Shown here: positions 23,843 through 27,047 of the stretch, piece by piece | Layout: each line of letters opens with the position of its first letter | How positions within the stretch are numbered: the stretch's first letter is position 1 | Assembly: GCA_002813105.2 (NCBI GenBank) | Contig: CP017966.2 | Span: 310,001 to 374,000, forward strand | Origin: Methanosarcinales archaeon Met12 | Lineage (GTDB): Archaea; Halobacteriota; UBA148; JAJOKI01 | DNA: 64,000 nt | Direction of reading: 5' to 3' | The notes under the pieces: model-generated | Told to the model about the DNA's origin: nothing | Database searches by the model: none | What the model saw: the letters and a program-made list of their open reading frames with translations, nothing else | Program-made: the position numbers and the translations under genes

Positions 23843-24045
23843 TAGCGGGGAATGGATTTGAACCATTGGTCTACGGGTCCCTCTCCCACAACCTGCAAAG
23901 CAGGAGCCAACTTTTATTAAAAAGTTTGGTTTCGTTTTTTGTTCAAACTTTTTATTAAAAAGTTTGGTTTCGTTTTTTGTTCAAACTTTTTATTAAAAAG
24001 TTTGGTTATGAGCCCGTCGGGATTTCCTGACTACCCTACCCCGCT
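23843..24045 (-). tRNA. Initiator tRNA-Met (CAU) with 128-nt intron
   Basis: Mature ends pair AGCGGGG with CCCCGCT, discriminator A; the anticodon stem has the three G:C pairs (GGG:CCC) and loop CTCATAA typical of archaeal initiator tRNA. Intron 23879-24006 sits between positions 37 and 38. A bulge-helix-bulge can be drawn with one A-A mismatch in the central helix. The first pair is A1-T72, as in initiators. Mature length is about 75 nt. Confidence 0.93.
23879..24006 (-). repeat. tRNA-iMet intron with tandem palindromic repeats
   Basis: The 128-nt intron contains three 38-bp direct repeats (units starting near 23907, 23945 and 23983). Each unit holds AAACTTTTT-ATT-AAAAAGTTT, a 9-bp hairpin, followed by GGTTTCGTTTTTTGTTC. 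A further hairpin CCTGC-TTT-GCAGG lies near the 3' splice side. The intron encodes no protein. Confidence 0.85.
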
Positions 24046-26928: not shown

Positions 26929-27047
26929 TGCTCCGATGGGGATTTGAACCCCAGTCGCAGGAGTTCTCCAAGCTTTTGGTTTTTGAGAGTCCTGCATGAA
27001 TAGCCTTCAGTTCTTAGCTGAATTTGGCCGAACTACACTATCGGAGC
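26929..27047 (-). tRNA. tRNA-Glu (CUC) with two introns
   Basis: Ends pair GCTCCGA with TCGGAGC, discriminator A; T arm GGGG-TTCAAAT-CCCC; anticodon loop CTCTCAA. Intron 1 (27000-27023, 24 nt) lies in the D loop: central helix GGCC/GGCT between bulges AAA and ATT, with intron hairpin TTCAG/CTGAA, a standard bulge-helix-bulge. Intron 2 (26963-26982, 20 nt, ends uncertain by one base) lies by the anticodon, helix TCTC/GAGA. The spliced tRNA is 75 nt. Confidence 0.92.

Follow-up and report, generated by a model that had tools for sequence, protein, structure and literature searches.

The window (G000:C1:310001-374000), which is the whole stretch of 64,000 nt that was analysed, belongs to a single-contig genome of 1.07 Mb that is 97% complete. 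No tRNA was called in the window by ARAGORN or by Rfam at curated cut-offs. A tRNA-Glu(CUC) gene with two introns was located on the minus strand at exactly 26929-27047, the position given in the preliminary description; when the genome was searched with Rfam under relaxed settings, this locus scored only 20.1 bits, below the 29-bit cut-off. The features of this locus are as follows.

26929..27047, minus strand: tRNA-Glu(CUC) gene with a 119-nt precursor whose 5' end is at 27047 (ARAGORN on the spliced sequence, and orthologues)
27024..27047, minus strand: exon 1, GCTCCGATAGTGTAGTTCGGCCAA, tRNA positions 1-21 (alignment with the intronless orthologue G008)
27000..27023, minus strand: D-loop intron of 24 nt between positions 21 and 22, ATTCAGCTAAGAACTGAAGGCTAT (presence/absence in relatives, and core fold)
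26984..26999, minus strand: exon 2, TCATGCAGGACTCTCA, positions 22-37 with anticodon CTC (alignment and ARAGORN)
26964..26983, minus strand: canonical 37/38 intron of 20 nt, AAAACCAAAAGCTTGGAGAA (missing from all four orthologues that have the D-loop intron; helix 4/4)
26929..26963, minus strand: exon 3, positions 38-73, to the acceptor end (alignment and ARAGORN)

When both inserts were taken out, 75 nt remained, and ARAGORN called this sequence cleanly as tRNA-Glu(CTC), every stem being intact, as had been proposed for the spliced cloverleaf. The spliced tRNA was identical to that of G004 (D-loop intron removed) at 71/75 positions and to the intronless tRNA of G008 at 66/75 positions. It is encoded by the sole gene for that anticodon found in the 1.07-Mb genome. 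In a genome search for Glu-type D-arms with up to two mismatches, the only other hit was Glu(UUC), a gene with an uninterrupted D loop and a 37/38 intron.

Orthologues within the same order were used to define the empty site. The tRNA-Glu(CUC) genes of G002, G004, G006 and G010 carry a D-loop insert (23 nt) without the anticodon intron, and those of G008, G003 and G005 carry neither insert. Given that relatives exist with the D-loop intron only and with neither intron, both junctions are fixed to the base, and the 24-nt and 20-nt introns first read from the window stand unaltered. The anticodon loop of the four orthologues with a D-loop intron is CTCTCAC (read as CTCTCACTCCTG), identical to the predicted splice product here, and the spliced tRNA agrees with the orthologues base for base across the joins. 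A gene of the metallo-beta-lactamase fold adjoins tRNA-Glu(CUC) in this genome, in the relatives with the D-loop intron and in the intronless G008, and this common neighbour indicates that the intron-bearing and empty sites are orthologous. The locus has been maintained in at least two families. The anatomy of the gene and its intron junctions are considered secure, and splicing of both introns in the cell is considered very likely.

The D-loop intron had originally been described as a strict bulge-helix-bulge (BHB), and this applies to its intron side. The exon GGCC pairs with the intron GGCT in a 4-bp central helix, segments of 3 nt lie at both cuts (5' bulge AA|A, 3' AT|T), and the intron itself closes in a hairpin of 5 perfectly paired bp (TTCAG:CTGAA). 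The 4-bp and 5-bp helices occurred jointly in 1e-5 of shuffled inserts and are therefore above chance. On the exon side, the ATT lies opposite six unpaired D-loop bases (TAGTTC) that are closed by the D stem alone, and the test for a strict hBHBh' motif at this site found no exon-side helix adjoining a true 3-nt bulge. Given the missing helix beside the ATT, the site is relaxed (HBh'-like) rather than strict. Among the D-loop introns of the relatives, the intron strand is GGCC or GGTC with the pairing always kept, and the hairpin contains one G-U pair in one case. Folding of the full-length precursor favored an alternative D-arm structure by 0.4 kcal/mol (-41.2 vs -40.8 kcal/mol for the BHB fold), and the minimum-energy fold was the BHB fold in all four relatives with the D-loop intron. 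The pairs of the helix had a probability of approximately 0.27 in this precursor and 0.47 in that of G010, against 0.79-1.0 in the remaining three relatives. The 37/38 intron, with a complete CTCT:GGAG helix (4/4), is of the ordinary canonical type and shows no notable difference from canonical archaeal 37/38 BHB introns.

In total, 45 tRNA genes were assembled from loci in this genome, and exact removal of introns restored a cloverleaf in every one (45/45 called by ARAGORN with the anticodon assigned to them). Introns were present in 28 of the 45 genes, with 31 introns overall. The 37/38 site holds 24 of these (15-366 nt) and the D loop holds six (Glu CUC, Ser GGA, Ser TGA, Leu GAG, Leu CAA and a chimeric Leu CAG). 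The remaining one, 30 nt long, belongs to tRNA-Arg(CCT) (L028, G000:C1 548936-549040) and interrupts its anticodon stem at about position 29/30. Two introns each are found in Glu(CUC), Ser(GGA) and Ser(TGA), and tRNA-Leu(TAG) is intronless, so the D-loop site is not filled everywhere.

Several introns share sequence with one another. The Leu(GAG) D-loop intron matches the Ile(GAT) 37/38 intron (85% over 188 nt), and the His(GTG) 37/38 intron matches the Leu(CAG) D-loop intron (93% over 96 nt). When the genome was searched with one shared intron, 19 matches were obtained, and those that were located lie either inside tRNA introns or immediately next to tRNA genes. Related sequences at the D-loop and anticodon sites of different tRNAs imply intron transposition, and related introns in different tRNAs are taken as the signature of this process in Thermoproteales (PMC4033280). 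The Glu(CUC) introns, both short (24 and 20 nt), had no match to the other introns by BLAST (E 1e-3), and the D-loop one does not belong to the shared modular introns. The translocatable introns of Thermoproteales (Fujishima et al. 2010), as summarized in PMC4033280, resemble those described here in that noncanonical introns are many, several tRNAs have two introns and related introns occur in different tRNAs. Within the scope of that summary, the present case differs by its phylum and enzyme type, by introns that are modular and reach 366 nt, and by Glu(CUC) introns that matched no other intron at the E-value applied.

In order to examine D-loop introns more broadly, ten relatives from the order (MAGs labelled Methanocellales) were searched using a tRNA-Leu/Ser D-arm pattern, which matched 27 places in 9/10 of them. 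A Leu/Ser pattern that allowed short gaps matched none of the relatives, whose introns exceed those gaps. Every place in the ten relatives that could be read as a complete tRNA-Leu gene has a D-loop insert after GGTCAA, and across the order nearly all tRNA-Leu genes that were read contain D-loop introns (31-253 nt). Combining the Leu/Ser D-loop introns of this genome, the order and G155, the GGTC helix is complete (4/4) in 28/29, and GGTC is partnered by six different 3' intron sequences. The 29th intron is from Ser(TGA), a gene holding two introns, and when it is read with both its helix is also 4/4. At slid positions, used as a control, the helix was found in 3.3% (73/2209).

D-loop introns had been called rare in Euryarchaeota/Halobacteriota. 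This stands for the phylum sample, where a narrower tRNA-Leu pattern run on 394 genomes found D-loop introns outside the order in G155 only (a lower bound, with long introns missed). It does not stand within the order, where they are the rule in tRNA-Leu, and there is a precedent in the tRNA-Glu of Methanopyrus kandleri (PMC3695527). G155 belongs to a different family and has two tRNA-Leu genes with D-loop introns (L162, L167) and the same GGTC:GGCT helix. A match to G334 in the phylum survey proved to be an intronless tRNA-Leu. Two false leads from a pattern scan for D-loop introns were also set aside: L079, which has a 37/38 intron only, and L083 (JASHNZ010000058.1, Nitrososphaerales MAG), which is without a D-loop intron. 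The L083 tRNA-Glu has a 37/38 insert and an apparent second insert in the T arm. In a Nanoarchaeota MAG (L078, JAUYDG010000035.1), tRNA-Glu(UUC) resembles the present gene in having a D-loop intron (~30 nt) at the corresponding place, after GGTCAA. It differs in isoacceptor and sequence, with 3/4 helix pairs by inspection, and its intron is probably independent in origin.

The tRNA-Glu isoacceptors of M. kandleri were reportedly described by Marck and Grosjean in 2003. Like the gene described here, this euryarchaeal tRNA-Glu has a canonical intron plus a second one in the D loop, and its D-loop intron is reported to be removed after the canonical one (PMC3695527). In M. kandleri the splicing endonuclease (EndA) is an (alpha beta)2 enzyme of constrained broad specificity (PMC6379350), whereas a single-gene alpha' enzyme is encoded here. 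In contrast to the M. kandleri tRNA-Glu isoacceptors, the D-loop intron is found here in the CUC isoacceptor alone, plus Leu and Ser tRNAs.

EndA of this genome contains two PF01974 domains in one frame of 385 codons (352 aa from the likely start). From that start it is full length against NCBIfam NF006795 (520.8 bits, cut-off 501) and aligns along the alpha' EndA of A. fulgidus. The two tandem repeats thus lie in one polypeptide with the catalytic Y/H/K in the C-terminal repeat, as in alpha'2 enzymes. The same single-gene, two-repeat alpha' EndA is present in 10/10 relatives from the order, and three further phylum members likewise have two domains in one ORF. No separate beta subunit or three-unit epsilon protein was found in this genome or in each of the 13 others, all of which have only two PF01974 domains in one ORF. 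Judged by its sequence, EndA is of the alpha' type with a single gene and two repeats, and by homology with A. fulgidus EndA we infer that it is homodimeric. An alpha2beta2 or epsilon2 endonuclease, which the preliminary description expected, therefore appears to be absent.

Under the reading favored here, tRNA-Glu(CUC) would be a functional gene whose precursor has two archaeal-type introns, both cut by EndA (probability roughly 0.85). Each intron would be released by EndA cleavage at its two ends, after which the exons would be joined by a ligase, expected to be RtcB. At the D loop, the 4-bp helix of exon GGCC and intron GGCT would present AAA and ATT at the cut sites, and given that an exon-side helix is not formed beside the bulge, the enzyme would have to accept a relaxed (HBh'-like) site. 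The gene is one case of an expansion seen throughout the order, in which D-loop introns have multiplied at GGYCAA sites, above all in tRNA-Leu and tRNA-Ser, and are presumably handled by the alpha'2 homodimeric EndA. It is likely that this enzyme alone removes them.

How an alpha'2 enzyme might do so could lie in the loop at the position where broad-specificity enzymes bear a CSL or ASL loop with a key Lys, which here has a 5-residue insertion relative to A. fulgidus (GSFFGTLLHEKMLQLS vs GSEKGDLVTLS). A slightly longer loop could give the alpha'2 EndA of the broader group a mild broad specificity. This loop is about equally long in G011, G012 and G018, which belong to the phylum but not to the order, and the sampled tRNA-Glu D loops of these genomes are intronless, so loop length does not track with D-loop introns and we regard the explanation as unlikely. 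An order-specific EndA loop as the cause of D-loop introns was dropped because these outgroups have the same loop length.

Alternatively, the D-loop sites may be cut by a separate unrecognized endonuclease of broad specificity, or by way of an accessory subunit, rather than by alpha'2 EndA alone. The sites are relaxed on the exon side, and published descriptions of alpha'2 enzymes give them a narrow specificity confined to the canonical BHB (PMC6379350, PMC4033280, PMC4090602). At 97% completeness a second endonuclease could be absent from the assembly, and a non-homologous enzyme is conceivable. The relatives, too, show just two PF01974 domains each in one ORF, which makes this explanation rather improbable.

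Were CUC dispensable, tRNA-Glu(CUC) might be a decaying pseudogene: Glu(UUC) could read GAG by wobble, and the chimeric tRNA-Leu(CAG) indicates that tRNA genes in this genome do get damaged. We consider this very improbable given that all stems are intact, that the compared exons are near-identical to those of relatives (as in the G004 comparison), and that the locus persists in more than one family. That the D-loop insert is not an intron and is kept in the mature tRNA as an expanded D arm is scarcely credible despite its folding into a stable hairpin, as orthologues in the same neighborhood lack exactly that insert, dozens of D-loop inserts (23-253 nt) keep the splice-site pairing and mature tRNAs could not accommodate all of them, and late removal during maturation is reported for the D-loop intron of M. 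kandleri tRNA-Glu (PMC3695527).

For splicing by the alpha'2 EndA, the wider context is set by reviews in which the range of spliceable introns is determined by enzyme type (PMC4090602, PMC4033280). Where EndA is of the alpha4 or alpha2 type, euryarchaeal tRNA genes are said to contain introns in <10% of cases, never more than one per gene and at the canonical site only (PMC4090602), and Methanothermobacter and Korarchaeum, listed with multiple-intron tRNAs, are earlier exceptions (PMC4033280). Here, 28/45 intron-bearing tRNA genes, six of them with D-loop introns, are found alongside an alpha' enzyme, in contrast to this rule, and the order's departure from it seems far more extensive than that of the earlier exceptions. 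We tentatively propose, at somewhat short of even odds, that in this uncultured methanogen-related order mobile tRNA introns may be spreading between anticodon-loop and D-loop sites (mainly entering Leu, Ser and Glu tRNAs at GGYCAA D loops), spliced by a broad-specificity alpha'2 EndA without a CSL/ASL loop, which would break the proposed link between enzyme type and intron diversity. If splicing were confirmed, intron position would not be limited by EndA subunit type. Given its related introns at two sites and its empty orthologous sites, the order would then also be a natural test of tRNA intron spread. Taken singly, the tRNA-Glu(CUC) gene is only modestly interesting, since M. kandleri offers a precedent; the interest lies in the lineage-wide pattern. 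No report of tRNA introns in the UBA148 lineage was found in the openly accessible literature that was searched. Standard finders (ARAGORN and Rfam) overlook many of these tRNA genes.

Additional observations were made at other tRNA loci of the genome. An initiator tRNA-Met gene lies at 23843-24045 of the window (minus strand) and was overlooked there by ARAGORN and Rfam; its 37/38 intron is 128 nt long and includes a 38-nt tandem repeat in 2.5 perfect copies. The D-loop intron of the chimeric tRNA-Leu(CAG) (L133, G000:C1 701.7-702.2 kb) measures 253 nt, and the acceptor sequence at the 3' end of this gene fits tRNA-Thr(TGT) rather than its own 5' end. The gene is followed by two direct repeats with this tRNA-Thr(TGT)-like 3' end, an arrangement that resembles the outcome of recombination or insertion events at the 3' ends of tRNAs. 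Directly after tRNA-Ser(GCT) is an array of tRNA-intron modules (L004, G000:C1 1053.19-1053.43 kb) bounded by a direct repeat of the tRNA end, CTCGGCGTC. Finally, a second copy of the tRNA-Gly(CCC) 3' end (L089, G000:C1 417072-417092) was observed ~125 nt downstream of that gene.
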